A stretch of 64,000 nucleotides of DNA from Apoderus coryli (taxonomy: Eukaryota; Arthropoda; Insecta; Coleoptera; Attelabidae). Of the stretch, positions 35,290 through 64,000 are shown piece after piece; within the stretch, counting starts at the first letter, position 1, and each line of letters starts with the position of its first letter. The translations under genes and the position numbers were made by a program. The notes beneath the pieces were generated by a model. The model saw nothing but the letters and a program-made list of their open reading frames with translations. It had not been told where the DNA came from and ran no database searches. Location of the stretch: assembly GCA_911728435.2 (NCBI GenBank), contig OU452200.1:22335715-22399714 (forward strand), read 5' to 3'.

Positions 35290-37523
35290 GTGTGTATTTG
35301 AAACAGCAATTCCAAACTAAAAACATATTTGAAATAATTAGTATGAATCAGGAATACCCACAAGAATCCAATAAAATCTTAAATGGATTTAATATGGTTT
35401 TATAAGCAAATCCAAATGCAAAAGCTATTGGGATTAATTTGTAGTTATCAGTTTCTATCAGGATTGCCCAATAGAATCTGTTTACATTTAGAACGGATTT
35501 AATATGGTTTTATAAGTAAATCCAAATGCAAAAGTTATTGGGATTAATTTGTAGTTATCAGTTTCTATCAGGATTGCCCAATAGAACCTGTTTACATTTA
35601 GAACGGATTTAATATGGTTTTATAAGCAAATCCAAATGCAAAAGTTATTGGGATTAATTTGTAGTTATCAGTTTTTATCAGGATTGCCCAATAGAACCTG
35701 TTTACATTTAGAACGGATTTAATATGGTTTTATAAGCAGATCCAAATGCAAAAGCTATTGGGATTAATTTGTATTTATCAGATTCTATCAGGATTGCCCA
35801 ATAGAACCTGTTTACATTTAGAACGGATTTAATATGGTTTTATAAGCAAATCCAAATGCAAAAGCTATTGGGATTAATTTGTAGTTATCAGTTTCTATCA
35901 GGATTGCCCAATAGAACCTGTTTACATTTAGAACGGATTTAATATGGTTTTATAAGCAAATCCAAATGCAAAAGCTATTGGGATTAATTTGTAGTTATCA
36001 GTTTCTATCAGGATTACCCAATAGAACCTGTTTACATTTAGAACGGATTTAATATGGTTTTATAAGCAAAGCCAAATGCAAAAGCTATTGGGATTAATTT
36101 GTATTTATCAGATTCTATCAGGATTGCCCAATAGAACTTGTTTACATTTAGAACGGATTTAATATGGTTTTATAAGCAAATCCAAATGCAAAAGCTATTG
36201 GGATTAATTTGTAGTTATCAGTTTCTATCAGGATTGCCCAATAGAACCTGTTTACATTTAGAACGGATTTAATATGGTTTTATAAGCAAATCCAAATGCA
36301 AAAGCTATTGGGATTAATTTGTATGTATCAGATTCTATCAGGATTGCCCAATAGAACCTGTTTACTTTTAGAACGGATTTAATATGGTTTTATAAGCAAA
36401 TCCAAATGCAAAAGCTATTGGGATTAATTTGTATTTATCAGATTCTATCAGGATTGCCCAATAGAACCTGTTTACTTTTAGAACGGATTTAATATGGTTT
36501 TATAAGCAAATCCAAATGCAAAAGCTATTGGGATTAATTTGTAGTTATCAGTTTCTATCAGGATTGCCCAATAGAACCTGTTTACATTTAGAACGGATTT
36601 AATATGGTTTTATAAGCAAATCCAAATGCAAAAGCTATTGGGATTAATTTGTAGTTATCAGTTTCTATCAGGATTACCCAATAGAACCTGTTTACATTTA
36701 GAACGGATTTAATATGGTTTTATAAGCAAATCCAAATGCAAAAGCTATTGGGATTAATTTGTATTTATCAGATTCTATCAGGATTGCCAATAGAACTTGT
36801 TTACATTTAGAACGGATTTAATATGGTTTTATAAGCAAATCCAAATGCAAAAGCTATTGGGATTAATTTGTAGTTATCAGTTTCTATCAGGATTGCCCAA
36901 TAGAACCTGTTTACATTTAGAACGGATTTAATATGGTTTTATAAGCAAATCCAAATGCAAAAGCTATTGGGATTAATTTGTATGTATCAGCTTCTATCAG
37001 GATTGCCCAATAGAACCTGTTTACATTTAGAACGGATTTAATATGGTTTTATAAGCAAATCTAAATGCAAAAGCTATTGGGATTAATTTGTATTTATCAG
37101 ATTCTATCAGGATTGCCCAATAGAACCTGTTTACATTTAGAACGGATTTAATATGGTTTTATAAGCAAATCCAAATGCAAAAGCTATTGGGATTAATTTG
37201 TAGTTATCAGTTTCTATCAGGATTGCCCAATAGAACCTGTTTACATTTAGAACGGATTTAATATGGTTTTATAAGCAAATGCAAAAGCTATTGGGATTAA
37301 TTTGTATGTATCAGATTCTATCAGGATTGCCCAATAGAACCTGTTTACATTTAGAACGGATTTAATATGGTTTTATAAGCAAATCCAAATGCAAAAGCTA
37401 TTGGGATTAATTTGTAGTTATCAGTTTCTATCAGGATTGCCCAATAGAACCTGTTTACATTTAGAACGAATTTAATATTGTTTTATAAGCAAATCCAAAT
37501 GCAAAAGCTATTGGGATTAATTT
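35290..37523 (+). repeat. 110-bp tandem array, left part
   Basis: About 20 units. GCTATTGGGATTAATTTG recurs at exact 110-bp steps (ATTGGG at 35427, 35537, 35647 and on). Each unit contains CAGGATTGCCCAATAGAACC, GTTTACATTTAGAACGG and TTTAATATGGTTTTATAAGC. Two unit types (GTAGTTATCAGTTTC and GTATTTATCAGATTC) are mixed in short blocks. The array is cut at 37523 by the Penelope pair and continues beyond it. Confidence 0.95.
37510..37523 (+). other. Left 14-bp target duplication of the Penelope pair
   Basis: ATTGGGATTAATTT, part of the 110-bp unit, ends here. The same 14 bp begin the right part of the array at 41905-41918. The phase of the array continues across, as expected for an insertion with target duplication. 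Confidence 0.8.
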
Positions 37524-38057
37524 TTCTTATTTATTATTCTTGAACCTTGTTCTTCAATTTCTTTCTTTTTTTTTCCTTTTCTTGGGATGAGGTTCACAAA
37601 TTTAAAAAAATTATTTTTTTTTGAAACTATTTTTTTATTCGTTTCATGTCATTTTTTTTCCAACGTTTCGACTAGACTCGGCTAGTCTTTTTCAAGAAAT
37701 TCTGAAATTTCGTCTACAATCAGTAACATAAAACACTTAAAAATATAACAATACATGCAATTACATAGATGTATAAACCATTACGTTAACACAAACAAAT
37801 ACAAAAAATTCCATTACCTTTTTTTTTCAATTCACAAACATTTCTTTTTCCTTTTTTTTATTATTACATTTTTTTTTAAGTAGGTACGTATACACGACCT
37901 TGTTCTACAATCTGACAATAAATTTTTAGTAGGATCTGAACAAAATTTTAAATGGCAAAACTAAAGTGTGATAAAATGATTAAAATTTTTTTTTTTTTTT
38001 TTTGTTGATACATAGAAAACGAGGGGTGTTCAGCAATTTTTGTTATTATTTATAGTT

Positions 38058-39724
38058 TTATATGATGTTATTATAGATCTGACTTAGGAATTGAATGTCT
38101 GTTCTGTCATTGATACTATGTTCATTCTTTTTGATGTGAATCATCTCCAGCATTTCCCTCTTTTTGTTATTGGCCTCCTTTAATAAAATTGAAGTGGCAT
38201 CAAAATCAAATTCATGGTTATAAGATTCAATGTGTTTTTTAAGAGCTGTTTTACCGGTGTTGGGATTCCTATGATTTGCAAGACGCTTCTCGAGATATTG
38301 TTTTGTTTGGCCAATGTATACTCCTTCGCAACCCTTACAAGGTATTTCATACACAACATGGGTATTTTTAATTTTTGGAGTTTTTGATTTTAGTTTAGTG
38401 TATACTTTTGATTTTAGAGTATTATTATTTTTGTGGCAGACAGTGATGTTAGGTTTTTTTAATTTACTTTTTAAACTTTCTGATAATCCTTTAACATAAG
38501 GGAGCGACACATAATTATTATTACTGTTTGCAAATAGATTGCTATTGGGACTCTCGTTATAGAATTTGTGAATTCTTTTTTTGAAAATTTTTTGTATTAA
38601 ATTTTGTGGATAAGAATTTTTTATAAGTGCATTTTTTGCTTTAGTAATTGCCTCTTCTCGATATTCGGGATCTGTTAACTTGATTGCTCCGTCAGCAAGT
38701 CCAATAACAACACTTTTTTTATGGCTAAACGAATGGCAAGAGTTATAGTTTACATATCTTTGAGACCAAGTCGGTTTGGTGTACCACATCGTTCGAATTT
38801 TATTATTTGTTCTAATAAGAGTGGTATCGAGAAAATTTATTTGGTTGTTGTTTTCAACTTCTATTGTGAATTGCAATTTTGGATGATAGGAATTGAAAAC
38901 GTTTAGGGTGTTATTGATGTGTTGCTCGGGGATCAAAGCAATACAATCATCAACGTATCTGAAAAAGAATACCGGCCTGGAGTGGAGTGACTGGGTAACA
39001 GTGCTCTCTAAATCCTCCATCACAATTTGCGCTACAACGCTCGATATGGAAGCACCCATAGCAACACCATCAACCTGTTTGTAAAGTTCGTTTTCAAATT
39101 GAAAATAAGTGGTGGATAAGGTAAACTCTATTGCCTTTTTAAATTCAGGGAGAGGAATGTCTGTATGTTTTTTTATTTCATTCCATTTTTTCTCGATTAT
39201 TTGGAGAGCAAGGTCTATGGGGATATTTGTATATAAGGACACAACATCTAGCGATATGAGGACGTGTTGATCTGGTACGTTTATATCGTTTATTTTCTTT
39301 TTGAAATCCCACGAATCTTTTATGTAGTAATCATTGTCATTAATTATGTTTTGCAAAATATTTTTTAAGAAGTCTGCTAGTGGCTTTGTCGGAGCTTCTA
39401 TACACGATACGAGAGGTCTCAATTACACGCCGGCCTTGTGTAATTTTGGCAAGCCATACAACTTTGGTGGTAAGGAGTTGTGCGTTACTAATTTTTTTGC
39501 CAGAATCGGAGAGATGTAACCTTTTTCCTCCCAGTCTTTTATGAATTTATTTTGTTTTGTTTGGAAAGACTCCGTTGGATCGCGGTTAATTTTTTGATAT
39601 GTGGAATCATCGGTAAGTAAATTATTCATCTTTTGAATGTATTCAGTTTTTTCCATGATAACAGTTTTATTTGATTTATCTGGCAAGAGAATGACAATGT
39701 CAGGATTGTTCCTTAAGAATAGTT
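38058..39724 (-). pseudogene. Penelope-like RT/GIY-YIG ORF, copy A (5'-truncated, one internal stop)
   Basis: Frames 39686-39423 and 39422-38058 are the same frame, separated only by a TAA at 39423-39425 where copy B has a proline codon. RT features are GLPKLHKAG, the catalytic Asp in SLDVVSLYTN (residue 59 of the downstream part), MGASISSVV, and RYVDDC with YVDD at residues 156-159. The last 100 residues form a GIY-YIG nuclease: VYEIPCKGCEGVYIGQTK, EKRLANHR, and the Glu in REMLEMIHI. In this family the RT copies element RNA and the nuclease nicks the target. The N-terminal part is missing because the frame runs open into the dimer junction. Apart from truncation and the stop it is well preserved. 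Confidence 0.93.
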
Positions 39725-39741
39725 AAACATTAAAAAACCTA

Positions 39742-41407
39742 AACTATTCTTAAGAAACAATCCTGACATTGTCATTCTCTTGCCAGATAAATCAAATAAA
39801 ACTGTTATCATGGAAAAAACTGAATACATTCAAAAGATGAATAATTTACTTACCGATGATTCCACATATCAAAAATTTAACCGCGATCCAACGGGGTCTT
39901 TCCAAACAAAACAAAATAAATTCATAAAAGACTGGGAGGAAAAAGGTTACATCTCTCCGATTCTGGCAAAAAAATTAGTAACGCACAACTCCTTACCACC
40001 AAAGTTGTATGGCTTGCCAAAATTACACAAGGCCGGCGTGCCATTGAGACCTATCGTATCGTGTACACAAGCTCCGACAAAGCCACTAGCAGACTTCTTA
40101 AAAAATATTTTGCAAAATATAAATAATGACAATGATTACTACATAAATGATTCGTGGGATTTCAAAAAGAAAATAAACGATATAAACGTACCAGATCAAC
40201 ACGTCCTCAAATCGCTAGATGTTGTGTCCTTATATACAAATATCCCCATAGACCTTGCTCTCCAAATAATCGAGAAAAAATGGAATGGAATAAAAAAACA
40301 TACAGACATTCCTCTCCCTGAATTTAAAAAGGCAATAGAGTTTACCTTATCCACCACTTATTTTCAATTTGAAAACGAACTTTACAAACAGGTTGATGGT
40401 GTTGCTATGGGTGCTTCCATATCGAGCGTTGTAGCGCAAATTGTGATGGAGGATTTAGAGAGCACTGTTATCCAGTCACTCCACTCCAGGCCGGTATTCT
40501 TTTTCAGATACGTTGATGATTGTATTGCTTTGATCCCCGAGCAAGACATCAATAACACCCTAAACGTTTTCAATTCCTATCATCCAAAATTGCAATTTAC
40601 AATAGAAGTTGAAAACAACAACCAAATAAATTTTCTCGATACCACTCTTATTAGAACAAATAATAAAATTCGAACGATGTGGTACACCAAACCGACTTGG
40701 TCTCAAAGATATGTAAACTATAACTCTTGCCATTCGTTTAGCCATAAAAAAGTGTTGTTATTGGACTTGCTGACAGAGCAATCAAGTTAACAGATCCCGA
40801 ATATCGAGAAGAGGCAATTACTAAAGCAAAAAATGCACTTATAAAAAATTCTTATTCACAAAATTTAATACAAAAAATTTTCAAAAAAGAATTCACAAAT
40901 TCTATAACGAGAGTCCCAATAGCAATCTATTTGCAAACAGTAATAATAATTATATGTCGCTCCCTTATGTTATAAAGATTATCAGAAAGTTTAAAAAATA
41001 AATTAAAAAAACATAACCTCACTGTCTGCCACAAAAATAATAATACTCTAAAATCAAAAGTATACACTAAACTAAAATCAAAAACTCAAAAAATTAAAAA
41101 TACCCATGTTGTGTATAAAATACCTTGTAAGGGTTGCGAAGGAGTATACATTGGCCAAACAAAACAATATCTCGAGAAGCGTCTTGCAAATCATAGGAAT
41201 CCCAACACCGGTAAAACAGCTCTTAAAAAACACATTGAATCTTATAACCATGAATTTGATTTTGATGCCTCTTCAATTTTATTAAAGGAGGCCAATAACA
41301 AAAAGAGGGAAATGCTGGAGATGATTCACATAAAAAAGAATGAACATAGTATCAATGACAGAACAGACATTCAATTCCTAAGTCAGATCTATAATAACAT
41401 CATATAA
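39742..41407 (+). pseudogene. Penelope-like RT/GIY-YIG ORF, copy B (5'-truncated, frameshifted)
   Basis: The frame is open from the junction through 40790 and contains the RT, with DVVSLYTN, MGASISSVV and RYVDDCIALIP. It is lost at an A run at 40745-40751, where copy A has seven A and this copy six. Further small indels lie at about 40860-40980. The GIY-YIG nuclease frame reopens at 41111-41407 (GCEGVYIGQTK, EKRLANHR). Copy B lacks the stop of copy A, so the two copies decayed independently after or before dimer formation. Nucleotide identity to copy A is high, with only scattered changes. Confidence 0.92.
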
Positions 41408-41904
41408 AACTATAAATAATAACAAAAATTGCTGAACACCCCTCGTTTTCTATGTATCAACAAAAAAAATTTTTTTTAATCATTTTATCACACATTAGTT
41501 TTGCCATTTAAAATTTTGTTCAGATCCTACTAAAAATTTATTGTCAGATTATAGAACAAGGTCGTGTATACGTACCTATTTAAAAACAAAAATGTAATAA
41601 TAAATAAAAGGAAAAAGAAATGTTTGTGAATTGGAAAAAAAGGTAATGTAAATTTTTGTATTTGTTTGTGTTAACGTAATGGTTTATACATCTATGTAAT
41701 TGCATGTATTGTTATATTTTTAAGTGTTTTATGTTACTGATTGTAGACGAAATTTCAGAATTTTTTGAAAAAGACTAGCCGAGTCTAGTCGAAACGTTGG
41801 AAAAAAAAATGACATGAAACGATTAAAAAAATAGTTTCAAAAAAAAAATTATTTTTTTAAATTTGTGAACCTCATCCCAAGAAAAGGAAAAAAAAAAGAA
41901 AGAA

Positions 41905-43170
41905 ATTGGGATTAATTTGTAGTTATCAGTTCTATCAGGATTGCCCAATAGATCCTGTTTACATTTAGAACAGATTTAATATGGTTTTATAAGCAAATCC
42001 AAATGCAAAAGCTATTGGGATTAATTTGTAGTAATCAGTTTCTATCAGGATTGCCCAATAGAACCTGTTTACATTTAGAACGGATTTAATATGGTTTTAT
42101 AAGCAAATCCAAATGCAAAAGCTATTGGGATTAATGTGTATTTATCAGATTCTATCAGGATTGCCCAATAGAACCTGTTTACATTTGGAACGGATTTAAT
42201 ATGGTTTTATAAGCAAATCCAAATGCAAAAGCTATTGGGATTAATTTGTAGTTAGTTCTATCAGGATTGCCCAATAGATCCTGTTTACATTTAGAACAGA
42301 TTTAATATGGTTTTATAAGCAAATCCAAATGCAGAAGCTATTGGGATTAATTTGTAGTTATCAGTTTCTATCAGGATTGCCCAATAGAACCTTGTTTACA
42401 TTTAGAACGGATTTAATATGGTTTTATAAGCAAATCCAAATGCGCAAAAGCTATTGGGATTAATTTGTATTTATCAGATTCTATCAGGATTGCCCAATAG
42501 AACCTGTTTACATTTAGAACGGATTTAATATGGTTTTATAAGCAAATCCAAATGCAAAGCTATTGGGATTAATTTGTAGTTATCAGTTTCTATCAGGATT
42601 GCCCAATAGAACCTGTTTACATTTAGAACGGATTTAATATGGTTTTATAAGCAAATCCAAATGCAAAAGCTATTGGGATTAATTTGTGGTTATCAGTTCT
42701 ATCAGGATTGCCCAATAGAAGCTGTTTACATTTAGAATGGATTTAATATGGTTTTATAAGCAAATCCAAATGCAAAAGCTATTGGGATTAATTTGTAGTT
42801 ATCAGTTTCTATCAGGATTGCCCAATAGAACCTGTTTACATTTAGAACAGATTTAATATGGTTTTATAAGCAAATCCAAATGAAAAAACTATTGGGATTA
42901 ATTTGTAGTTATCAGTTTCTATCAGGATTGCCCAATAGAACCTGTTTACATTTAGAACGGATTTAATATGGTTTTATAAGCAAATCCAAATGCAAAAGCT
43001 ATTGGGATTAATTTGTGGTTATCAGTTCTATCAGGATTGCCCAATAGAAGCTGTTTACATTTAGAATGGATTTAATATGGTTTTATAAGCAAATCCAAAT
43101 GCAAAAGCTATTGGGATTAATTTGTAGTTATCAGTTTCTATCAGGATTGCCCAATAGAACCTGTTTACAT
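41905..43170 (+). repeat. 110-bp tandem array, right part
   Basis: About 11.5 further units of the 110-bp repeat in the same orientation as the left part, starting with the 14-bp duplication of the Penelope target. Some units carry small indels (41929, 42252, 42392, 42445) that are rare in the left part. The array ends in ACATTTACATGTAAATCC at about 43185. Confidence 0.93.
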
Positions 43171-46100
43171 TTACATGTAAATCCTTGTATATTATTTAAA
43201 ATAAATCAGAACTATTCAATTTTGTTGAAAAACGTTAAGGTTTATAGTATTATAGAATTACTTACCTCTTCGTCGAATTCATTTTCATTTATTATTATTA
43301 TTTGTTATATATGTCTAGAGTTATTATTTTAAAAAAACATAACTTTGGGATTTGTGGAAACAAAAAAAAGTCTGCACTCGGTTACATGTACTTTTTTTCT
43401 ATTTTAAAATTACATGTCAATATTTATCTCAATGTTCACCTAAAACCAAATATAAAATATTTTATATAGCAAAATATTAATAATACTTAATCGATGAGTA
43501 GAAACAAATAAAAGCACGTTTTATCACTTCACCAAACATAATTTTTTTAATGTATACGCGCGTTTTGGTAACAATGTTAGCATCTTCAAAAGAGAACTAA
43601 AATGCTTAGTCAACATCACTTGAAAATAAAAGGAATTTGAAATGAAGTGGTAACACGGTGCTTAATTGTCTAATAATTACAACTAATAAAATAGTTTATT
43701 CTCACAGTATAGTAGTAGTAGTATAGTAATAACACAAACAACGTCAGTTTTATCAAATGCCATAAAAACGGTAGCAAAACATGTTTCGTAAGTAGAAACT
43801 GTAATCCTTAACATTAGGTACATACGAAAACAAAGATATCAAAATCATAATTCAATTATGTTTTATTTAGAACATATTAATAGTTCTTCGAACTAACATA
43901 TATTTTTTGTCATACATATATTATGTAAAATGATGAATACTAAATTTTTACGCGAAATGAATAGTCATAATATACCTAATTATTTAATTTATATCAGGCA
44001 AGTGTCTGGTCTTTTAAAATCACCACACTGACGTAGGCGTAAAGAAGTTTAAAGACGTCTTGTCTTGGGTTTCAATACTAATCTGATTATGGAAATGTTT
44101 TAGAAGATAGATATTGTGAACTAAATAAGTAGCCATTTAAGTTTTAGGGTTCCATAATATATTGAGCGACGAAGTTTAATGAAAATTATTTTTGGAATGT
44201 TATCATAAATAAGTGTTTTAGGTCATTTTATAAGTAAATAAGTACTTGTTGAACCAAATTTGGTAAACCATACTACTGAACATTTCTAAGTTCTGAACTT
44301 TTGGCAAAATAAAAAAAAACAAAACTACCTAAAAATCTTACTAGGCTTGTCTGAAGACAGCAGATACACCACATAGCCACATAGTAAACTTGGTCTACAT
44401 ACTCGATATAAAATTAGTGCCTTAGAGAAACCCGTGAAAAGTGTATAAAACGGATAAAAAGTAAACCTAATATTTTTGTCGACTATAAAATAAAGATGTT
44501 AGGACTTTTTTTATAGAAAAAAGTATAACATAAAATTGTTATTGAATAATACTAACTTTCCCTTCCTCATGTCTTATTGTCTAAAATATCTTCACTCTCT
44601 ACGTTTCTTTCTTCAGAGGTTTCCGTATTGTCTTTTAAATTATTATTTTTCATCCCATCTAAAAAAAATTTCAAGTCATGACTAACTTTTTGTGGAAAAG
44701 TTAGACATTGGAATATTAACATATCAGTTATGAAAATACTGTTAAGCAGTTTATTACATAAACAATACTTTTATTTAATTGGTACTTACCACAGCTCTGC
44801 CGGGGCGCCCTATTAATATAGGATATCTTTATCCCAATCCAGGTATTTACTTTTGATAACTGGGTACGCATGGCGAATTCATCAGTCCCTTTTTTAATTA
44901 GATAAAATGTTGTAATATCTGAAAATGCAAAACGAATCAGTTCCATGTATTGGCTTCAAATATGCCCAGAAATAAAATTTGAATAAATAGGCCATTCTTA
45001 CAGCGAGCGGTGTGCAATTTTAATAGCAAAGTAAAAAGCAAATGTCAACACAAATATGTTTTATATTAACGCCTTTATAGAGACACGTTTCGAGAGTATA
45101 ATACACTCATCATTAGCCTGCAGCAACCAGTGCTGGAAAACCGAACAATTAAACATTCACATTTCAATGCAGAACCTGTACTGGGGAGCATTTAAGAGTT
45201 TCAATGGTAAAACGTAAGTATTTACAATACAAACATTGTAATCGACGGTATTTATATTGCTACAGACTGATGATGAGAGTGATATATCACGGAAACATGT
45301 TTATATAGTAATTCCGACTAATATCTGCATTGATAATTAAAGTATTATTAGAATCATGCTGCTAAGAAAATTGGAGATGTCCTCGGACAGGGTTCTTGTT
45401 AATTTCCCAGACTGAATAAGAGATATAATTATGGGGATGAGACAGAAATGTACTTCAAGATTAATATTGAAATATAGAAAGAATCTTCCACATGACAAAT
45501 TTGTCCACAAACAAAACCTTAAATTGCAGACGTATAAGAATCATAGAAAAACGGCAGACTTCTTATCGCACTGATTACAAAATTTGTTTAAAAACATTGC
45601 AAAGAATAATAAATTAAATTATTGGTGTGGAAATAAAATAAACTTCATGAATTGTTTTTTTAACTTTGTGTCATAAGGAAAATCTGCCTCATGATCATAA
45701 TGAAACCTATAAAACGGTAGCAAGTGAGAACCCAAAAGTTCTATTTTAGTCATGATATCAATGATACTTGAACGTTCAAAATTATACGGTTTTCAAAATA
45801 CCAAAGCTACCTTCTCCTTACCAAGAATACAGTTTCTACAAAAATAGCAAGCAAAATATGCGCCATAGCAATTAATATAATAATAGATAATAGGTATATA
45901 AATATACGCTATTATTGTTATAGATAGAGAATAGTAGGTATTAAATAAGCTACCCAAATTGAGTTATGACGACATACATGTTGTATTCACACACACTTCT
46001 GGATGTGATTGTATTAATATTCATGTCTTCACCAATTCTATAATAATTTTGAAATATACTATGATATAATTCTATACCATGTCAGAAGTCAGCTGCAATC

Positions 46101-47030: not shown

Positions 47031-48775
47031 TATTTAGGATAACGGACATGAATGAAATTTTTTATTGAATCAGTATTGAAACCAATCGCATCGTGGAAAT
47101 TCTTATTCAGCAATTCTATATTAAACGAAATTGAAATCAGCAGTTTCGTGCCACATAAAAATTAATTCAAACTGATAAAACCAAATTAAATATTTGATTT
47201 GGAATACCTTATTGAAACCAATAAATTCCAAATAAAGAATTTCTTATTAATCCATATTGAAACCAATTCGTTTCATGGTAATTTTTATTCAGTACTTCCA
47301 TATTAAACGCAACTGAAATAAGCAGTTTTATGCCGCATAAAAACTAATTCAAACTGATAAAACCAAAATAAATATTTGATTTGAAATGGCGTATTGAAAC
47401 CCACAATTTCCAAATAAAGAATTTCCTATTAATCCCAATTAAAACCAATTCGTTTCATGGCAGTTTTTATTCAGTACTTTCATATTAAACGCAATTGAAA
47501 TAAGCAGTTTTATGCCGCATAAAAACTAATTCAAACTGATAAAACCAAATTAAACATTTGATTTAGAATGCCTTATTGAAACCAACAATTCCCAAATAAA
47601 GAATTTCTTATTAATCCATATTGAAACCAATTCGATTTATGGCAATTTTTATTCAGTAATTCCATATTAAACGCAATTGAAATAAGCAGTTTTATGCCGC
47701 ATAAAAACTAATTCAAACTGATAAAACCAAATTAAACATTTGATTTGGAATACCTTATTGAAACCAATAAATTCCAAATAAAGAATTTCCTATTAATCCC
47801 AATTAAAACCAATTCGTTTCATGGTAGTTTTTATTCAGTACTTCCATATTAAACGCAATTGAAATAAGCAGTTTTATGCCGCATAAAAACTAATTCAAAC
47901 TGATAAAACCAAATTAAACATTTGATTTGGAATACCTTATTGATACCAATAAATTCCAAATAAAGAATTTCCTATTAATCCCAAATAAAACCAATTCGTT
48001 TCATGGTGGTTTTTATTCAGTACTTCCGTATTAAACGCAATTGAAATAAGCAGTTTTATGCCGCATAAAAACTAATTCAAACTGATAAAACCAAATTAAA
48101 CATTTGATTTGGAATACCTTATTGAAACCAATAAATTCCAAATAAAGAATTTCCTATTAATCCCAATTAAAACCAATTCGTTCCACGGTAGTTTTTATTC
48201 AGTACTTCCATATTAAACGCAATTGAAATAAGCAGTTTTATGCCGCATAAAAACTAATTCAAACTGATAAAACCAAATTAAACATTTGCTTTGGAATACC
48301 TTATTGAAACCAATAAATTCCAAATAAAGAATTTCTTATTAATCCATATTGAAACCAATTCGATTTATCGCAATTTTTATTCAGTAATTCCATATTAAAC
48401 GCAATTGAAATAAGCAGTTTTATGCCGCATAAAAACTAATTCAAACTGATAAAACCAAATTAAACATTTGATTTGGAATACCTTATTGAAACCAATAAAT
48501 TCCAAATAAAGAATTTCCTATTAATCCCAATTAAAACTAATTCGTTCCATGGTAGTTTTTATTCAGTACTTCCATATTAAACGCAATTGAAATAAGTAGT
48601 TTTATGCCACAGAACAACTAATTCAAACTGATAAAACCAAATTAAACATTTGATTTGGAATGCCTTATTGAAATCAACAATTCCCAAATAAAGAATCTCT
48701 TATTATTCCATATTGAAACCAATTCGTTTTATGGCAATTTTTATTCAGTAATTCCATATTAAACACTATTCATTT
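47031..48775 (+). repeat. 182-bp tandem array near the right end of the TIR element
   Basis: Nine full units at an exact 182-bp step: TGCC(G/A)CATAAAAA at 47149, 47331, 47513, 47695, 47877, 48059, 48241, 48423 and 48605. Each unit contains ATTGAAACCAAT twice, CAAATAAAGAATTTC, AATTGAAATAAGCAGTTTT and TCAAACTGATAAAACC. It is unrelated in length to the 110-bp array at the other end, but shares the word TTAATCCCAAT, the complement of ATTGGGATTAA, in opposite orientation. Confidence 0.95.
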
Positions 48776-49891: not shown

Positions 49892-51161
49892 GTCGAAAGC
49901 AAATTCGACCAGACGCTGAACCTCAATTATCATTTCTTTTTAATGAGCCTCTGGCGTACAGGTAATTATATATATATGCTTAATAAAATGTGTCTATATA
50001 AAATTTAAGGTATAATGTTCAATAATATTGTAATAAACATAATATGGTGTATTTACCACACATCTAGATTCTAGATCTGTGGTATTTAACTATTGTATTT
50101 ATGTAAAAGGATGTGTTTGGCGACATCTACTTTTCGTTGATAGTACGCCGAGTGAACAACAGTTCCTATATCGGGGTGTATTTATATTTCTTTTTCTTTT
50201 CAGCTCAGATTCAACTGTAGCCGAATCCTCTCCCAGCAAATCTAGTAGGTAAGTAGATATTGAATATTTAGACCATCAGATGTTGATCAACCAAGGACCT
50301 ATGTGATCCACAAACTGTAGCAATGCGATCTTATTAAAATTAACTTTCCTTTAGCTACTAAATTAGAATGGTACCACTCACTGAAATACTAAGCTAAAGC
50401 ATTTTATTTAAATTTTTTAGAACTTCAGATGTTCATGAAGCAGGGATCTGTGATCCAGAAACTTTAGAAATGCTAGTTGCGGAGGAAGCAGTTGCTGGCC
50501 CCTCAAATGGCCCATCTAATTTGTAAGTAGGTATATAGCTTTAAATTACAACATATAAATAACTAAGATTGTGGAATTAGTAATAGTAACACATTAATTC
50601 AAGAGAAACCTTTTTTTTTCTATCTATAACCGGTTATAGGCTGTTGGTAGGGTTCCAAATATAATGTCAGTATACTTTATTTTAGATTAATGCAGAAAAT
50701 TGAACAAGAGGGTGTTTTTAGAGTTACGCCATTGTCACCAATAACGGAAACAACAGACACAGCATCTGAAACTGAACCAAATACAGTGGGGTATTTTTTT
50801 TTAATTTATAAAACAAATATCTTCAGAATTGCATCCATTATGTGTTAATAAAATACGTTTTTTAATAGCTTAATAAATGAGACTGTCAGTTCTAAATACT
50901 AAAAACTGTAAAATAATAAACGACCGTTTCAAATATACATTAACACTAGTAGTAACAATTATCTACTTATATTCAATCAATTATTTATTTATTTTTTTTG
51001 TTTGTTTTATATTTCAAAGTGTGAGGTCCTCTTCTTCCGGGTTATCTGGAATTTTAGCGTTGGAAAATGTACAACAACCAAAAGGCAAACAAAGCAATAA
51101 AAAAAGACCAAAGATATTATTTATTGGCACGTCTCGTCTGAGTGTAAATAGGATTATTTAA
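49892..51161 (+). pseudogene. THAP-type gene, 3' exons, copy X (truncated by gypsy LTR)
   Basis: Five exons with consensus splice sites and consistent phases: 49892-49961 (5' end cut by the LTR), 50204-50248, 50421-50522, 50686-50790 and 51020-51161 (stop TAA 51159-51161). The product is an acidic, S/T/E-rich linker (SSDSTVAESSP, EMLVAEEAVAGPS, ITETTDTASETEPN) followed by a basic tail (KGKQSNKKRPK). The first three exons and their introns are duplicated at 52229-52830, where the upstream part encodes a THAP-like zinc finger. This copy preserves the last two exons, which are not seen after copy Y. The gypsy insertion removed its 5' part. Product function unknown; THAP proteins bind DNA. Confidence 0.8.
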
Positions 51162-52830: not shown

Positions 52831-53996
52831 ATGTGCTCTAAATATAATGTTATCAACGATTTATATTTTGTAATTATAAATTTTTCTTGTTAATTTTTTA
52901 TTGTATTACATTTATTTATCACATTAAACATTACATTTGGAAATTATTTTTGGGGCACCAAGTATTTGGGTACACACTGTATAATATACTAGTTTCCCAG
53001 ATAATATATAGTATACCTATCTCCTATATAATCCTATAACCATCATAGTCTAAAGTTATTTAGAATTAGATACGGTAATAATAATAATAAGATAATAGTA
53101 TATTGTGCAACGAACATGAAATGACATATATTTCCTACGAGTATGATCATACGAGTAGGAAATGGTCATTTCATGTGAGTTTCACACTATACTTTTTCTA
53201 CGACTGATTTAATACTTTTGAATAAATTTAACATAATTTTTAGGCAAATATTTGTTTTTCGAAACTTACCCTTGTTAGCATATAAGCCTAAATACGATAA
53301 ATTAGAAGTCTTAAATTGACTAGGTGGTGTTAAACTATATTCACTATCACTGTTTATGTGTTTTGAAATTAGCGAAATACTTAATTATAATTATTATTAA
53401 TTATAAGTACCAAAACTGTCAATTTGGTGTTTGTATTTTCGGCGTTGCTATGGGGATTTTTCATGCCCGCCGCTACTTTTATCATTACAATTGATTACAC
53501 AATGAAATTTTATTACGCACGGATAAATGATAAACAGCATTACAATGTACTACATTGTCAAAACATGATTGAACATATAATAAAGGCATTTAAAGACAGT
53601 CGTAGAAAAAATATATTTTTATCATAAACCAAAAAAAAATAACGTTATTTTAAAAACCTACAATTTATCATTGCTTTATATCACTTTAGTGAACATCAAC
53701 CGCCTAATTAAAATATAAAGAATGCCTTTAAAACCGTACGCCACTGGTACATAAAACGAAATCGAATCGACGAACCAGGTACAACGTTGCCATTTTTACT
53801 ATCTGTCCTTTTCTATCTTATATATCAACTGCCAACTTATGTCTGATTGTAAACAAATGTGAATTATGAATGAAATTTCAAATAATGTTATATCTCTCGA
53901 GTTGCTAGATCTGTGGTTTCAATGTTATTTATTTATGAAAATACTCGCGAACCAGCAGATACACACCAACCCATGAGCATTGTCTTTATAAACATA
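52831..53996. other. Intergenic AT-rich stretch
   Basis: Similarity to copy X ends near 52830. A near-palindrome lies at 53115-53178. TTTTTCTACGACTG at 53200 and its complement CAGTCGTAGAAAAA at 53597 suggest a degraded fold-back element of about 410 bp. The 67-codon ORF at 53424-53627 lies inside it and has a hydrophobic start but no recognisable domain. Confidence 0.5.
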
Positions 53997-56184
53997 GTCT
54001 GTCAGCGCTTGATTAGTACCTGTCTGAAAAAACCAGACGGCGTTGTCGGAAAATGTCGTTCATTCATTAATTTGGGTTTATAGTAAATGTATAGAAACTT
54101 TGGTGGAAAAGTGGGGGAGCCATGTTTTTAGACCAATCAGGTCGTGATTTGAAACATACGGACATTTATAATAAGTTCGCGTATTTTTCTTTCGCTTCCA
54201 GCCATAGACAATGATGCCAGCCGTCACATAATTATCAGATGCTACCTTATTTTTCATTTTATAAATGGTTCCAACATTATTTTTTTTGTGACGAATAATT
54301 CAAAAATATAATTAAATGTTATTTGGCTTGATCTGAGTTTTCCACATTTATTAACTTAGTTTTAACGATATCTATTATAAAAAAGTTTCTTTGACTTCAT
54401 TATTTAGGCGATCACATAATATTCAGTCGTCATAGTCGCAACACTGTATCTATTAATAATAAAATAAGAAATAAATATCTACCTATATACGATATAAGGT
54501 AGGTCCTACTCGTACATAAAAAAATATACGAAGTTTTATACCTAACAGACATAGCTATATATATATATTATCATTATTATTTATCCTTTTTCTCTATAAA
54601 ATAATATTTAACGTGATTTTAAATTTTAAACTTAAAAAATATTTTTTAGTGGAAATTTAAATTCAGTGTTACTTATTGTAAGAGTAAAAACAATAGTGCT
54701 AATTTTTTGTGTTGATTATAGGTAATTTCCATTTACGAGATACAAAGCCGAAAGGTAAGTTCTGATCCATTTTTTTATAAAAGTAGTAGTTATGTTGGAA
54801 ATTTGTTTCACACTACCATGTTTTTACCAGACGGGCCGTTTCGTTGATCCACAACTCATCAGTGGTGATCGGCAGGCAGTGTGACGCAAATTTCCAACGC
54901 TAGATATCGCCGAAAACAACTCTTTGTCACTATATTTTTTTTCTGTTATAGAATTTTGTTAAGTTGTGGGAAATAGGGCTACTGGCGAACCACCCACTGA
55001 AAAAAGGTAACGCGCCATTAGCAATACTTCATGAGTGGTGTGGAAATTTGTTTTCAATAATTATAGTGCTCTATGGTTGGAGATTATGAATGGTAGGAAA
55101 TGGAAAAGAAAAGTCGCTGAAAGATTTTGTAATGCGCTCCATTAAAATATATTAGCTGATGCACATTACTTGTTATTTATACCTCTATTCTTGTATGTTT
55201 TCTAACATCCTCATTAATTTCTACTGTTTATGGAATAAACAATGTTCTTTAGTAATTACAAAGTTGATTGTTTTGTTAAAACCGATACTTAATAAAACAA
55301 TGAATAAATGTTAAAAAACTGACCCTCTTGAGAAAAGAATAACTCTCCATGTAAATATAGATATTTTTGTTTTTTTGCCCTTTTTACTGCCTTATAAATG
55401 TGCACTACATTAATTTTATATCGTAGATATTTTAGACCAAACTCAAAGCGAAAATTTGTTTTTAAAAAGTATTCCATACTTGGTCTACAAAATCTGCTAT
55501 AAAAAGTTAATGTGCATCATAACGCTTAGTGTCAGAGAAATAATTAAAGTCATTTGTACAAGGGACAACAAAAATGCAAATTCTAGGCATTATCAAAAGA
55601 TCACATTTTCGTCAAAACACATCAATTATAGTAGTAAATCTTAATTCCAAAATTAAATCGATGGAAATCGATAAAGGCGTTTAGAAATTATTCAGAAAAA
55701 ACGATATTAATTTGAGAATTTTAGCGCCCTGTAGAGGCACATCGAAGCAACATGACATGTCTATTTGCCTCGATTGGCTTATTTTTAGTTGAGGAATTTG
55801 TGGTTAAGCGTTGTAGTCATTTCATGAACACCCTGTACCTATATCTACATCTACTTAAATAAATACTATTTTTCACTACCCATTTTTTACAGTAACCCCG
55901 TTATTATGCTTATGTTTTTGTTTGTCCTACCTCAAAATTGTATGGTCTGGCAACCTTAGTTGTAGAGAAACATCTACATAAAATTTTCTGGTCTGGCAAC
56001 CCTAGTTCGAGTGAAATAAACTAACAGAGGGGAACTTTTCAGTGTTTGAAGAAGTCGTTCACCCGCGCCTGCTCCCCTCTACCAAACTATGTGAAAGAGG
56101 AGAATTTTGATTTTCATTCATAAATCGTACTTCAAAGTTTGGCCACTAGAGTCCAGCACCTGCCGGTACATAGCGCTGACAGAC
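53997..56184. mobile_element. 2.2-kb element with short inverted ends (putative TA-target type)
   Basis: ATAGTCTGTCAGCGCT at 53994-54009 and its complement AGCGCTGACAGACTAT at 56172-56187 face each other. If TA is the duplicated target, the element starts GTCTGTCAGCGCT at 53997 and ends at 56184. No transposase ORF was seen. Inside are the hammerhead at 54794-54898 and two copies of TGGTCTGGCAACC(T/C)TAG 47 bp apart (55942 and 55989). The 148-bp satellite begins right after it. The inverted ends are only 16 bp, so this is a moderate call. Confidence 0.5.
54794..54898 (-). ncRNA. Type I hammerhead ribozyme
   Basis: Minus-strand order: outer stem GTTGGAAATTTG paired to CAAATTTCCAAC (54887-54898 with 54794-54805); then CACACTGCC paired to GGTAGTGTG with one G-U; an internal loop; ACCA (54863-54866) paired to TGGT (54826-54829) next to the core. 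The core is CTGATGA (54856-54862), stem II GTTG/CAAC with a five-base loop, GAAA (from 54842), and stem III of A-U, C-G and G-C closed by GCC. The cleavage triplet GTC ends at 54830. Every conserved core base is present, and stem I has the internal loop typical of natural fast-cleaving forms. Predicted self-cleavage lies between 54830 and 54829. Such motifs are known from Penelope-like elements and animal retrozymes. Activity is inferred. Confidence 0.85.
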
Positions 56185-56187
56185 TAT

Positions 56188-59100
56188 CCTTTTGACTAAT
56201 AAAATTTACTTTTTATTTCTAAGTGAGAAAGCAGCTTTTTGGCAGCCACGTCGACGTTTAATTCTAAATAACAAAATTTTTATTAACAAAACGTTCTAAA
56301 TCGTTCTAATATGCTTTTTTATGCTTAATCTAATTTCTTTTGACAAATAAAATTGACTTTTAAATTCTAAGTGAGAAAACAGCTTTTTGGCAGCCACTTC
56401 AACGTTTAATTCGAAATAACAAAACTTTTATTAACAAAACGCGCTAAATCGTTCTAAATTGCTTTTTTATGCTTAATCTAATTTCTTTTGACTAATAAAA
56501 TTTACTTTTTAATTCTAAGTGAGAAAACAGCTTTTTGGCAGCCACTTCGACGTTTAATTCTGAATAACAAAATTTTTATTAACAAAACGCCCTAATTCGT
56601 CCTAAAATGCTTTTTTATGCTTAATCTAATTTCTTTTCACTAATAAAATTTACTTTTAAATTCTAAGTGAGAAAAGAGCTTTTTGGCAGCCACGTCGACG
56701 TTTAATTCTGAATAACAAAACTTTTATTAACAAGACGCGCTAAATCGTTCTAAATTGCTTTTTTATGCTTAATCTAATTTCTTTTGACTAATAAAATTTA
56801 CTTTTTAATATTAAGTGAGAAAACAGCTTTTTGGCAGCCACTTCGACGTTTAATTCTAAATAACAAAATTTTTATTAACAAAACGCGCAAAATCGGTCTA
56901 AATTGTTTTTTATGCTTAATCTAATTTCTTTTGACTAATAAAATTTACTTTTAAATTCTAAGTGAGAAAAGAGCTTTTTGGCAGCCACGTCGACGTTTAA
57001 TTCTGAATAACAAAATTTTTATTAACAAAACACCCTAAATCGTTTTAATATGCTTTTTTATGCTTAATCTAATTTCTTTTGACAAATAAAATTGACTTTT
57101 ATATTCTAAGTGAGAAAACAGCTTTTTGGCAGCCACTTCGACGTTTAATTCGAAATAACAAAACTTTTATTATCAAAACGCGCTAAATCGTTCTAAATTG
57201 CTTTTTTATGCTTAATCTAATTTCTTTTGACTAATAAAATTTACTTTTTAATTCTAAGTGAGAAAACAGCTTTTTGGCAGCCACTTCGAAGTTTAATTCT
57301 GAATAACAAAATTTTTATTAACAAAACGCCCTAATTCGTCCTAAAATGCTTTTTTATGCTTAATCTAATTTCTTTTCACTAATAAAATTTACTTTTAAAT
57401 TCTAAGTGAGAAAAGAGCTTTTTGGCAGCCACGTCGACGTTTAATTCTGAATAACAAAATTTTTATTAACAAAACGCCCTAAATCGTTTTAATATTCTTT
57501 TTTATGCTTATTCTAATTTCTTTTGACTAATAAAATTTACTTTTAAATTCTAAGTCAGAAAACAGCTTTTTGGCAGCCACTTCGACGTTTAATTCTAAAT
57601 ATCAACATTTTTATTAACAAAACGCTTTAAGTCGTTCTAAATTGCTTTTTTACGCTTAATCTAATTTCTTTTGACTAATAAAATTTACTTTTAAATTTTA
57701 AGTGAGAAAACAGCTTTTTGGCAGCCATTTGAACGTTTAATATTAAATAACAAAATTTTAGTAACAAAACGCGCTAAATCGTTCTAATTTGCTTTTTTGT
57801 GCTTAATCTAATTTCTGTTGACTAATAAAATTTACTTTTAAATTCTTAGTGAGAAAACAGCTTTTTGGAAGCCATTTGAACGTTTAATTCTAAATATCAA
57901 AATTTGACAAACAAAACGCTCTAGTTCGTTCTAAATTGCTTATTTACGCTTAATCTAACTCATTTTGACTAATAAAATTTACTTTTAAATTCAAAGTGAG
58001 AAAACAGCTTTTTGGGAGCCATTTCAACTTTTAATTCTAAATAACAAAATTTGACTAACAAAACGCTCTAGTTCGTTCTAAATTGCTTATTTACGCTTAA
58101 TCTAACTTATTTTCACTAATAAAATTTACTTTTAAATTCTAAGTGAGAAAACAGCTTTTTGGCAGCCATTTGAACGTTTAATATTAAATAACAAAATTTT
58201 AGTAACAAAACGCGCTAAATCGTTCTAATTTGCTTTTTTGTGCTTAATCTAATTTCTTTTGATTAATAAAATTTACTTTTAAATTCTAAGTGAGAAAATC
58301 AGCTTTTTGGCAGCCATTTGAACGTTTAATTCTAAATAACAAAATTTTAGTAACAACACGCGCTAAATCGTTCTAATTCGCTTTTTTATGCTTAATCTAG
58401 TTTCTTTTGACTAATAAAATTTACTTTTAAATTCTAAGTGAGAAAACAGCTTTTTGGGAGCCATTTCAACTTTTAATTCTAAATAACAAAATTTGACTAA
58501 CAAAACGCTCTAGTTCGTTCTAAATTGCTTATTTACGCTTAATCTAACTTATTTTCACTAATAAAATTTACTTTTAAATTCTAAGTGAGAAAACAGCTTT
58601 TTGGCAGCCATTTGAACGTTTAATTCTAAATAACAAAATATTAGTAACAAAACGCGCTAAATCGTTCTAATTCGCTTTTTTAGGCTTAATCTAGTTTCTT
58701 TTGACTAATAAAATTTACTTTTAAATTCTAAGTGAGAAAACTGCTTTTTGGGAGGCATTTGAACGTTTAATTCAAATATCAAAATATTAGTAACAAAACG
58801 CGCTAAATCGTTCTAATTTGCTTTTTTATGCTTAATCTAATTTCTTTTGACTAATAAAATTTACTTTTAAATTCTAAGTGGGAAAGAGCTTTTTGGGAGG
58901 CATTTGAACGTTTAATACTAAATAACAAAATTTGACTAACAAAACGCTCTAGTTCGTTCTAAATTACTTATTTACGCTTAATCTAACTTATTTTCACTAA
59001 TAAAATTTACTTTTAAATTCTAAATGAGAAAACAGCTTTTTCGCAGCCATTTGAACGTTTAATTCTAAATAACAAAATTTTAGTAACAAAACGTACTAAA

Positions 59101-62100
59101 TCGTTCTAATTTGCTTTTTTATGCTTAATCAAATTTCTTTTAACTAATAAAATTTACTTTTCAATTCTAAGTGAGATAACAGCTTTTTGGCAGCCATTTG
59201 AACGTTTAATTCTAAATAACAAAATTCGACTAACAAAACGCTCTAGTTCGTTCTAAATTGCTTATTTACGCTTAATCTAACTTATTTTCACCAATAAAAT
59301 TTACTTTTAAATTCTAAGTGAGAAAACAGCTTTTTGGCAGGCATTTGAACGTTTAATTCTAAATAACAAAATTTTAGTAACAAAACGCGCTAAATCGTTC
59401 TAATTTGCTTTTTTGTGCTTAATCTAATTTCTTTTGACTAATAAAATTTACTATTAAATTCTAAGTGAGAAAATCAGCTTTTTGGCAGCCATTTGAACGT
59501 TTAATTCTAAATAACAAAATTTTAGTAACAACACGCGCTAAATCGTTCTAATTCGCTTTTTTAGGCTTAATCTAGTTTCTTTTGACTAATAAAATTTACT
59601 TTTAAATTCAAAGTGAGAAAACAGCTTTTTGGGAGCCATTTCAACTTTTAATTCTAAATAACAAAATTTGACTAACAAAACGCTCTAGTTCGTTCTAAAT
59701 TGCTTATTTACGCTTAATCTAACTTATTTTCACTAATAAAATTTACTTTTAAATTCTAAGTGAGAAAACAGCTTTTTGGCAGCCATTTGAACGTTTAATA
59801 TTAAATAACAAAATTTTAGTAACAAAACGCGCTAAATCGTTCTAATTTGCTTTTTTGTGCTTAATCTAATTTCTTTTGATTAATAAAATTTACTTTTAAA
59901 TTCTAAGTGAGAAAATCAGCATTTTGGCAGCCATTTGAACGTTTAATTCTAAATAACAAAATTTTAGTAACAACAGGCGCTAAATCGTTCTAATTCGCTT
60001 ATTTAGGCTTAATCTAGTTTCTTTTGACTAATAAAATTTACTTTTAAATTCTAAGTGAGAAAACAGCTTTTTGGGAGCCATTTCAACTTTTAATTCTAAA
60101 TAACAAAATTTGACTAACAAAACGCTCTAGTTCGTTCTAAATTGCTTATTTACGCTTAATCTAACTTATTTTCACTAATAAAATTTACTTTTAAATTCTA
60201 AGTGAGAAAACAGCTTTTTGGCAGCCATTTGAACGTTTAATTCTAAATAACAAAATATTAGTAACAAAACGGGCTAAATCGTTCTAATTCGCTTTTTTAG
60301 GCTTAATCTAATTTCTGTTGACTAATAAAATTTACTTTTAAATTCTAAGTGAGAAAACAGCTTTTTGGCAGCCACTTCGACGTTTAATTCTAAATAACAA
60401 AACTTTTATTAACAAAACGCTCTAGTTCGTTCTAAATTGATTATTTACGCTTAATCTAACTTATTTTCACTAATAAAATTTACTTTTAAATTCTAAGTGA
60501 GAAAACAGCTTTTTGGCAGCCATTTGAACGTTTAATAATAAATAACAAAATTTTAGTAACAAAACGCGCTAAATCGTTCTAATTTGCTTTTTTGTGCTTA
60601 ATCTAATTTCTGTTGACTAATAAAATTTACTTTTAAATTCTAAGTGAGAAAACAGCTTTTTGGAAGCCATTTGAACGTTTAATTCTAAATATAATTTGAC
60701 AAACAAAACGCTCTAGTTCGTTCTAAATTGCTTATTTACGCTTAATCTAACTCATTTTCACTAAAAAAATTTACTTTTAAATTCTAAGTGAGAAAACAGC
60801 TGTTTGGCAGCCACTTGAACGTTTAATTCTAAATAACCAAATTTTACTAACAAAACGCTCTAATTCGTTCTAAAATGCTTTTTTATGCTTAATCTAATTT
60901 CTTTACACTAATAAAATTTACTTTTAAATTCTAAGTGAGAAAACAGCTTTTTGGCAGCCACATCGACGTTTAATTCTAAATAACAAAATTTTATTAACAA
61001 AACGCTCTAATTCGTTCTAAAATGCTTTTTTATGCTTAATCTAATTTCTTTTCACTAATAAAATTTACTTTTAAATTCTAAGTGAGAAAACAGCTGTTTG
61101 GCAGCCACTTGAACGTTTAATTCTAAATAACCAAATTTTACTAACAAAACGCTCTAATTCGTTCTAAAATGCTTTTTTATGCTTAATCTAATTTCTTTAC
61201 ACTAATAAAATTTACTTTTAAATTATAAGTGAGAAAACAGCTGTTTGGCAGCCACATCGACGTTTAATTCTAAATAACAAAATTTTATTACCAAAACGCG
61301 CTAAATCGTTCTAAATTGCTTTTTTATCCTTAATATAATTTCTTTTGACTAATAAAATTTACTTTTAAATTCTAAGTGAGAAAACAGCTTTTTGGCAGCC
61401 ACATCGAAGTTTAATTCTGAATAACAAAATTTGTATTAACAAAACGCCCTAAATCGTTTTAATATGCTTTTTTATGCTTAATCTAATTTCTTTTGACAAA
61501 TAAAATTGACTTTTAAATTCTAAGTGAGAAAACAGCTTTTTGGCAGCCACTTCGACGTTTAATTCGAAATAACAAAACTTTTATTAACAAAACGCGCTAA
61601 ATCGTTCTAAATTGCTTTTTTATGCTTAATCTAATTTCTTTTGACTAATAAAATTTACTTTTTAATTCTAAGTGAGAAAACAGCTTTTTGGCAGCCACTT
61701 CGACGTTTAATTCTGAATAACAAAACTTTTATTAACAAAACGCGCTAAATCGTTCTAAATTGCTTTTTTATGCTTAATCTAATTTCTTTTGACTAATAAA
61801 ATTTACTTTTTAATTCTAAGTGAGAAAACAGCTTTTTGGCAGCCACTTCGACGTTTAATTCTAAATAACAAAATTTTTATTAACAAAACGTGCTAAATCG
61901 TTCTAATATGCTTTTTTATGCTTAATCTAATTTATTTTCACTAATAAAATTTACTTTTAAATTCTAAGTGAGAAAACAGCTTTTTGGCAGCCACTTCGAC
62001 GTTTAATTCTAAATATCAAAATTTGTATTAACAAAACGCGCAAAATCGTTCTAAATTGTTTTTTATGCTTAATCTAATTTCTTTACACTAATAAAATTTA

Positions 62101-64000
62101 CTTTTAAATTCTAAGTGAGAAAACAGCTTTTTGGCAGCCACGGCGACGTTTAACTCTGAATAGCAAAATTTTTATTAACAAAACGCCCTAAATCGTTCTA
62201 ATATGCTTTTTTATGCTTAATCTAATTTCTTTTCACTAATAAAATTTACTTTTAAATTCTAAGTGAGAAAACAGCTGTTTGGCAGCCACATCGACGTTAA
62301 ATTCTAAATAACAAAATTTTTATTAACAAAACGCGCAAAATCGTTCTAAATTCCTTTTCTATGCTTAATCTAATTTCTTTTGACTAATAAAATTTACTTT
62401 TAAATTCTAAGTGAGAAAACAGCTTTTTGGCAGCCACGTCGACGTTTAATTCTGAATAGCAAAATTTTTATTAACAAAGCGCCCTAAATCGTTCTAATAT
62501 GCTTTTTTATGCTTAATCTAATTTCTTTTCACTAATAAAATTTACTTTTAAATTCTAAGTGAGAAAACAGCTGTTTGGCAGCCACTTGAACGTTTAATTC
62601 TAAATAACCAAATTTTACTAACAAAACGCTCTAATTCGTTTTAAAATGCTTTTTTATGCTTAATCTAATTTCTTTACACTAATAAAATTTACTTTTAAAT
62701 TCTAAGTGAGAAAACAGCTTTTTGGCAGCCACATCGACGTTTAATTCTAAATAACAAAATATAATTAACAAAACGCTCTAATTCATTCTAAAATGCTTTT
62801 TTATGCTTAATCTAATTTCTTTACACTAATAAAATTTGCTTTTAAATTCTAAGTGAGAAAACAGCTGTTTGGCAGCCACATCGACGTTTAATACTAAATA
62901 ACAAAATTTTATTAACAAAACGCGGTAAATCGATCTAAAATGCTTTTTTATGCTTACTCCAATTTCTTTTCACTAATAAAATTTACTTTTAAATTCTAAG
63001 TGAGAAAACTGCTTTTTGGCAGCCACATCGACGTTTAATTCTAAATAGCAAAATTTTTATTAACAAAACGCCCTAAATCGTTCTAATATGCTTTTTTATG
63101 CTTAATCTAATTTCTTTTCACTAATAAAATTTACTTTTAAATTCTAAGTGAGAAAACAGCTTTTTGGCAGCCACTTGAACGTTTAATTCTAAATAACCAA
63201 ATTTTACTAACAAAACGCTATAATTCGTTCTAAAATGCTTTTTTATGCTTATTCTAATTTCTTTTCACTAATAAAATTTACTTTTAAATTATAAGTGAGA
63301 AAACAGCTGTTTGGCAGCCACATAGACGTTTAATTCTAAATAACAAAATTTTATTAACAAAACGCGCTAAATCGTTCTAAAATGCTTTTTTATGCTTAAT
63401 CTAATTTCTTTTCACTAATAAAATTTACTTTTAAATGCTACGTGAGAAAACAGCTTTTTGGCAGCCACTTGAACGTTTAATTCTAAATAACAAAATTTTA
63501 CTAACAAAAAGCTCCAATTCGTTCTAAAATGCTTTTTTATGCTTAATCTAATTTCCTTTCACTAATAAAATTTACTTTTAAATTCTAAGTGAGAAACCAG
63601 CTTTTTGGCAGCCACATCGACGTTTAATTCTAAATAACAAAATTTTATTAACAAAACGCTCCAATTCGTTCGAAAATGCTTTTTTATGCTTAATCTAATT
63701 TCTTTTCACTAATAAAATTTAATTTTAAAATCTAAATAACAAAATTTTACTAACAAAACGCTCCAATTCGTTCTAAATTGCTTATTTACGCTTAATCTAA
63801 CTTCGTTTCACTAAGAAAATTTACTTTTAAATTCTAAGTGAGAAAACAGCTTTTTGGCAGCCACATGGACGTTTAATTCTAAATAATAAAATTTTATTAA
63901 CAAAACGCCCTAAATCGTTCTAAAATGCTTTTTTAGTCTTAATCTAATTTCTTTTCACTAATAAAATTTACTTTTAAATTCTAAGTGAGAAAACAGCTTT
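56188..64000 (+). repeat. 148-bp satellite array B
   Basis: About 53 monomers of the same satellite and orientation as 1-12698, open at the right edge. Three zones are visible. 56188-57720 has monomers like array A. 57720-60800 has a subfamily with TTGAACG and either CGCGCTAAATCGTTCTAATT or CTCTAGTTCGTTCTAAATTG plus TTATTTACGC. 60800-64000 is a mix rich in CTCTAATTCG with TTGAACG or ATCGACG. The start is abrupt at the inverted end of the neighbouring element. Confidence 0.96.
57870..60600 (+). repeat. Three-monomer higher-order repeat (442 bp) in array B
   Basis: The variant GGGAGCCATTTCAACTTTT recurs with ATTTCAACTT at 58021, 58463, 59638 and 60080 (442, 1175, 442 bp). The variant TTTTTTGTGCTTAATC recurs at about 57797, 58239, 59413, 59855 and 60592. 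Steps are 442 bp or larger multiples of one monomer. Confidence 0.8.

Follow-up and report, generated by a model that had tools for sequence, protein, structure and literature searches.

What is a complete hammerhead ribozyme (HHR) doing inside an element that resembles a DNA transposon, and how did it get there? The question arises from a 64,000-nucleotide stretch of the Apoderus coryli genome, hereafter the window, whose numbering is used throughout. On its minus strand, the unit at 54794 to 54898 is bounded by a 12-bp closing stem (54898-54887/54805-54794), inside which lie a 10-bp middle stem, an internal loop of 8/8 nt, and a proximal stem I of 4 bp; stem II (4 bp) is capped by a UGGAU loop and stem III has 3 bp. 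Reading of the fold places the catalytic core at CTGATGA (54856 to 54862, minus strand) and GAAA (54839 to 54842, minus strand, its first base being 54842), and the type I features CUGANGA, GAAA, a UH cleavage site, a three-helix junction, and an open stem I are all present. The cleavage triplet is GUC, with cleavage predicted 3' of C17 (54830, minus strand). An initial annotation of this DNA had put the cut between 54830 and 54829, in agreement with the position predicted here from the fold, and its coordinates, strand, complete core, stems, stem I internal loop, and 12-bp closing stem were all correct. Elsewhere in the window, 147-148-bp satellite arrays occupy both ends (1 to 14574 and 56189 to 64000), a 130-132-bp tandem repeat forms three arrays (25150 to 27662, 19815 to 20724, and 14943 to 15460), a 182-bp repeat lies at 47075 to 48764, and Gypsy-like pol reading frames, named by eye from their translation, are found at 32341 to 34613 on the minus strand.

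A long hairpin might resemble a hammerhead by chance, and two results would suit that reading. The Rfam type I model (RF00163) scored the unit at 30.0 bits (E 7e-6 in a search of 201 bases), under its cut-off of 34; the HHR was reported neither at the gathering threshold across the whole window nor in an E-value scan over 10 kb, so the covariance search that the initial annotation proposed gave a type I match below the gathering score. Four Rfam HHR matches were obtained elsewhere in the genome, two above the cut-off (L001, 37.4; L002, 34.4) and two below it (L003, 32.7; L004, 32.0). In addition, the fold of lowest free energy (-43.9 kcal/mol, z -6.3) is not the hammerhead (-36.3 kcal/mol); it retains the outer stems with the core re-paired. 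Against chance stands a held-out covariance model, R2, which excludes the window unit and was built from just four units, all of a second family whose stems differ in sequence. Within the 64 kb, the HHR was its sole match with E up to 10, at 73.4 bits (E 9e-17), a score to which the core sequence common to both families contributes. The closing stem reads CGAGAGTTTG/CAAACTCTCG in the family of the model and GTTGGAAATTTG/CAAATTTCCAAC in that of the window, such that the closing stem is kept in both with different letters. Homologs with full cores also occur in tandem arrays. A further model, R1, gave 106.8 bits, which prove little because it includes the window unit; its further 31.8 bits on the other strand are due to the stems being palindromic.

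Pair covariation was assessed in eight related units, three from the transposon and five from elsewhere. Bases paired in 96.3% of cells, compared with 33-44% when the partners were slid, and 9 of 35 pairs had changed on both sides, compared with 0-1 when slid; independent covariation events are few, because the eight rows represent two families whose variation is mostly one contrast. When the 3' letters were shuffled 500 times, neither the paired percentage nor the covariation score was reached (0/500 each), while the number of two-sided pairs was reached 16 times and that of further pair types in all 500. A strict CTGANGA..GAAAC pattern matched four times in the window and R2 recovered one of these, the unit at 54794 to 54898, in line with the initial annotation, which had called the other hammerhead-like sites of the window eroded. 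On the held-out model a chance fold was rejected, a reading to which we assign a practically negligible probability. By fold and covariation, the minus strand from 54898 to 54794 is a complete type I hammerhead.

The carrier was traced in the 428-Mb genome (129 contigs). Copies of the HHR stretch yielded 1594 first-look candidates, of which 40 were scored; where they matched the HHR stretch, the identity of these 40 was 94-100%. In the window, the carrier extends from 53978 to 56193 with the HHR on its minus strand, as delimited by its ends, by 7-bp duplications, and by a near-identical intact copy. The transposon ends are 32-bp inverted repeats, CATTGTCTTTAAAAGGATAGTCTGTCAGCGCT and, reversed, CATTGTCTTTATAAACATAGTCTGTCAGCGCT; the repeat at the 3' end of the element occupies 53978 to 54009 (plus strand; end-pattern match C7:22389692-22389723), and a residual part of the other, recognized by comparison of copy ends, occupies 56172 to 56193 (minus strand). 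Searching the genome with the end pattern returned 118 + 125 = 243 sites, and the reversed-pattern control none. From 100 end places listed, on three contigs, 38 facing pairs (L039-L076) were picked. Identical 7-bp target duplications (7/7) flank 33 of these 38 end-to-end copies, and in the remaining five the flanking seven bases agree at 6, 5, 5, 4, and 1 positions. The 33 perfect duplications follow NYNNNRN, with a pyrimidine at position 2 in 33/33 and a purine at position 6 in 32/33.

Most copies (27/38) are 2.7-3.13 kb long. That of the window is missing its outermost ~10 bp toward 56193, the end adjoined and cut by an array of the 147-bp satellite (from 56189), as well as ~0.45-1.1 kb present after the HHR in most copies with which it was compared. 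A near-identical intact copy (L005/L073) lies 64 kb away, 99.97% identical over 2914 bp and complete with both ends and the 7-bp duplication CTCATGG. No transposase was seen among the 38 copies, in which a single stop-to-stop frame, of 569 aa in L048, reached 120 aa or more. This frame belongs to a nested element at positions 2268 to 4681 of L048, which has its own ends (CACAGGCCAACA..TGTTGGCCTGTG) and only a subthreshold zf-AD match. The candidate relationship in which L048 is an autonomous copy and L043 its deletion product was rejected because the frame is part of this insert, which is bounded by inverted ends separate from those of the transposon. Classed by its ends and fixed-length duplication, the carrier is a non-autonomous TIR DNA transposon. 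The initial annotation had described short inverted repeats resembling DNA-transposon ends and had held that the carrier was no recognizable Penelope element. Both the likeness to a DNA transposon and the exclusion of Penelope are borne out by the true 32-bp inverted ends with their 7-bp duplications; the short repeats noted are the inner parts of the 32-bp repeats.

Hammerhead units also occur in short tandem repeats in this genome. At L077 a 332-bp monomer is repeated in tandem 4.2 times (99% identity), and at L078 a 336-bp monomer forms arrays (99-100%), with one HHR unit per monomer in both. Tandem monomers of ~150-450 bp with a type I HHR, which characterize retrozymes, are thus found at L077 and L078, and the window holds a single truncated unit. 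For the 336-bp family, 13 loci were examined, namely L001 and twelve more (L078-L089), from 40 scored of 1052 candidates. Two arms are arranged head-to-head as inverted copies in nine of the 13, with 5' ends inward and outer termini near monomer positions 302 and 146, a fraction biased upward because the search query, from L001, is itself palindromic. The two arms of L078 comprise about four monomers and about three and a third, and at L086 and L087 the entire array is only about 480 bp. Perfect A/T-rich duplications of 12-13 bp flank eight of the nine canonical loci, where 0-4 of 300 shuffles per locus reached the same; the ninth, L086, has a 7-base duplication that 59/300 shuffles reached. 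The target duplication of more than 4 bp expected of retrozymes is accordingly present, at 12-13 bp, in 8 of 13 loci. At the other four (L001, L081, L083, and L088), one end or both are non-canonical, and duplications of 7 bp or longer were not found. One terminus of each kind is present at all nine canonical loci, an outcome expected about once in 500 if the ends were chosen independently and with equal odds. Inverted arms were also seen in the 332-bp family, at L037 and at L036, where a 13-bp duplication was read by eye as AATTAGATTTATG; L038 and L077 are not inverted.

This insertion signature recurs within the transposon. The 336-bp monomer (RZ336) matches, over positions 1 to 110, the window at 54898 to 54788 (91.9% over 111 bp, E 2e-40), and its positions 269 to 301 match in reverse beside the HHR (81.8% over 33 bp, E 0.001), with a two-base overlap at the start of the HHR unit. 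On these matches, 54786 to 54929 (minus strand) would be the remnant of a 336-bp retrozyme insertion in the transposon, in which 54897 to 54929 (plus strand) represents an inverted stub of the left retrozyme arm with its terminus near monomer position 302. More of the left side is kept in the transposon copy L051, as stretches of 46 and 49 bp at 85-86%. Across the transposon copies, the retrozyme stretch stops near 302 on the left and near 146 on the right and is flanked by AAAAATAATATAG, so the captured insertion matches the canonical retrozyme loci in its two termini and likewise has a duplication, of 13 bp. In the window, 54930 to 54942 (minus strand) is a probable eroded left copy of this duplication, as judged from AAAAATAATATAG in related copies. 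Exact AAAAATAATATAG is found on the left in 11/38 copies, all of them without the HHR, and on the right in 17/38, all of them with it; the left duplication has a shorter form in eleven of the 38, and both duplications are exact within one transposon copy in none (0/38). An exact-pattern search for the empty site gave 0 matches, and no uninserted ancestor was found by it. The duplication is split over two sub-families, and because the terminus and duplication of each side are seen in a different sub-family, it is most likely that one retrozyme inserted before the sub-families split and that different internal deletions followed.

These sequence comparisons make it very probable that the window HHR is a captured, shrunken retrozyme insertion that the DNA transposon has spread. 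Under this scenario, a non-LTR retrozyme with 336-bp monomers would have inserted, head-to-head inverted, into an ancestral transposon with a 13-bp A/T-rich duplication, internal deletions would have shrunk it, and the cut-and-paste mobility of the transposon would have carried the HHR along as a passenger. Retrozymes with intact cores would in turn be transcribed, cleave themselves, and form circular RNA. The initial annotation had called a DNA transposon an unusual carrier: the carrier stands, and its oddity would be explained by capture, the HHR and its flanks being a degraded tandem-repeat retrozyme inserted into the transposon. A second, eroded retrozyme remnant lies at 50101 to 50173 of the window, where positions 224 to 297 of the 332-bp monomer match at 89% without the HHR.

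Could the HHR instead belong natively to the transposon and serve it, either in the processing of its transcripts or as the source of a small RNA that promotes transposition? The HHR sequence is present in 24 of the 38 end-defined copies, 23 of which span the whole unit (L054 has only its first part), and the core and stems of the window copy are intact, all of which would fit such a role. Set against this, 14/38 copies lack the HHR, and retrozyme-insertion flanks surround it where present. Small indels or an insert affect 11 of the 23 spanning units, and in L039 and L058 a 34-bp hairpin-like insertion lies inside stem I. Among the 23 units, counted on copies chosen by their transposon ends, the core reads CTGATGA in 8 and carries A6G in 15, three of which also have A9G. 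The A6 position is one that we take to be part of the invariant hammerhead core, with A6G presumably impairing cleavage. The initial annotation had named core mutations in genome copies as evidence against its ribozyme, and such mutations are found in most units, while the core of the window copy is free of them.

The history of this mutation was followed on a tree built without the HHR columns from 20 copies, the three of the 23 that exceed 3.5 kb being excluded. A6G maps to a single change (support 100/99) that covers 13 of the 20 rows. Since A6 is present in all ten aligned retrozyme units, A6G is the derived state, and its lineage kept amplifying. Among the 20 copies, the HHR has a mean pairwise difference of 0.029, compared with 0.083 for the stretch directly after it, a contrast that would favor a native function; the value is 0.033 in all the rest and 0.021 in the preceding 500 bp, so the HHR lies near the remainder and above the preceding stretch, and no clear extra constraint is visible. 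On account of the amplified, core-mutated group, the HHR as a native transposon part was rejected, and we regard it as highly improbable. Given that the transposon amplified after the core mutation, the HHR looks like a passenger, and the ribozyme seems dispensable to its carrier, even though the core of the window copy is intact.

How the retrozymes themselves are inserted is a separate question, and the mobilizing enzyme of animal retrozymes is given as open in PMC7229834. The same paper presents Penelope as a strong candidate, citing its common HHRs, tandem copies, and co-occurrence. In rotifers, inverted Penelope insertions are mostly head-to-head with an optional tail on one repeat, and target duplications are 8-10 bp with some insertions lacking any, according to PMC3846280. 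A Penelope-like signature of this type, inverted arms with an extension of one arm, is present in 9/13 retrozyme loci here. Mechanistically, a Penelope-type enzyme dimer would nick both strands of an A/T-rich target, and reverse transcription of circular or multimeric retrozyme RNA would start at two fixed internal sites, one per strand, giving palindromic arrays whose two termini differ in kind. The inverted arms, termini, and duplications support Penelope as the retrozyme mobilizer without proving it.

Inverted arms with 12-13-bp A/T-rich duplications also fit L1-like target-primed reverse transcription. Palindromic arrays could thus stem from LINE-type twin priming, or from self-priming of the template, with no Penelope enzyme involved; self-priming has been proposed for the palindromes of Penelope itself (PMC3846280). 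We consider this origin possible but doubtful, given that the combination of a terminus near 146 with another near 302, at 9/9 loci with both canonical ends, points to fixed internal start sites, and that internal starts and both-strand extension at A/T-rich sites are described for a Penelope protein, the latter not for R2 or L1 (PMC11167929). The fit to Penelope is itself imperfect. The duplications are 12-13 bp rather than the 8-10 bp of rotifer Penelope, the tail-like offset is about 156 nt rather than 30-40, and each of the nine insertions uses both kinds of terminus, whereas the in vitro study saw no strand difference in start sites, and its HHR mutants inserted normally (PMC11167929). 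Overall, and by analogy, we see an even chance that a Penelope-type dimer with two fixed start sites inserts animal retrozymes and that one such insertion was then spread by the DNA transposon. The window also holds a Penelope with RT and GIY-YIG frames, a 4.35-kb palindrome (37555 to 41908, 97.2%) bordered outside by 110-bp tandem arrays (35385 to 37523 and 41905 to 43173); in this one copy, no duplication of at least 8 bp was found at the ends of the repeat arrays.

The HHR and the retrozyme described here belong to already known kinds. A DNA transposon as HHR carrier, and inverted retrozyme arrays, were found described nowhere in the part of the open-access literature searched, which is weak evidence of absence; as far as that coverage shows, inverted retrozyme insertion with two termini is a new variation on these kinds, and so is the carriage of an HHR by a DNA transposon. 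If the capture is true, the DNA transposon would be a second vehicle for hammerhead ribozymes. It would also show that a mobile element can harbor a hammerhead without making use of it, which calls for care in surveys where the role of an HHR is deduced from its carrier. For the retrozymes, two fixed termini, inverted arms, and 12-13-bp duplications together provide a scar against which candidate mobilizers can be tested.

The tandem repeats of metazoan non-LTR retrozymes, 150-450 bp in length, contain type I HHRs (Cervera and de la Pena 2020, PMC7229834). The loci reported here resemble them in their type I HHR, short tandem repeats (332-336 bp), A/T-richness, and target duplications of more than 4 bp. 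They differ in that 9/13 are head-to-head inverted with two fixed termini, and in that stem I is closed by an additional stem of 10-12 bp; the word "inverted" is absent from the main text of that paper. The Dolichopoda pDo500 hammerhead satellite is alike by description, as an insect satellite-like repeat with an HHR (PMC2837043). With Penelope-like elements (PMC11167929 and PMC3846280), the retrozyme loci share head-to-head inverted arms, the extension of one arm, A/T-rich targets, and the association with type I HHRs. In contrast to these elements, no reverse transcriptase was seen in the retrozyme monomer, the offset and duplication lengths differ, and the HHR, with its stem III and extended stem I, departs from the minimal form reported for Penelope. 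Finally, the carrier shares with non-autonomous TIR DNA transposons its inverted ends of 32 bp, a duplication of fixed length, many copies, and no transposase in the copies seen, and is set apart from them by the 7-bp NYNNNRN duplication and the retrozyme passenger that it carries.
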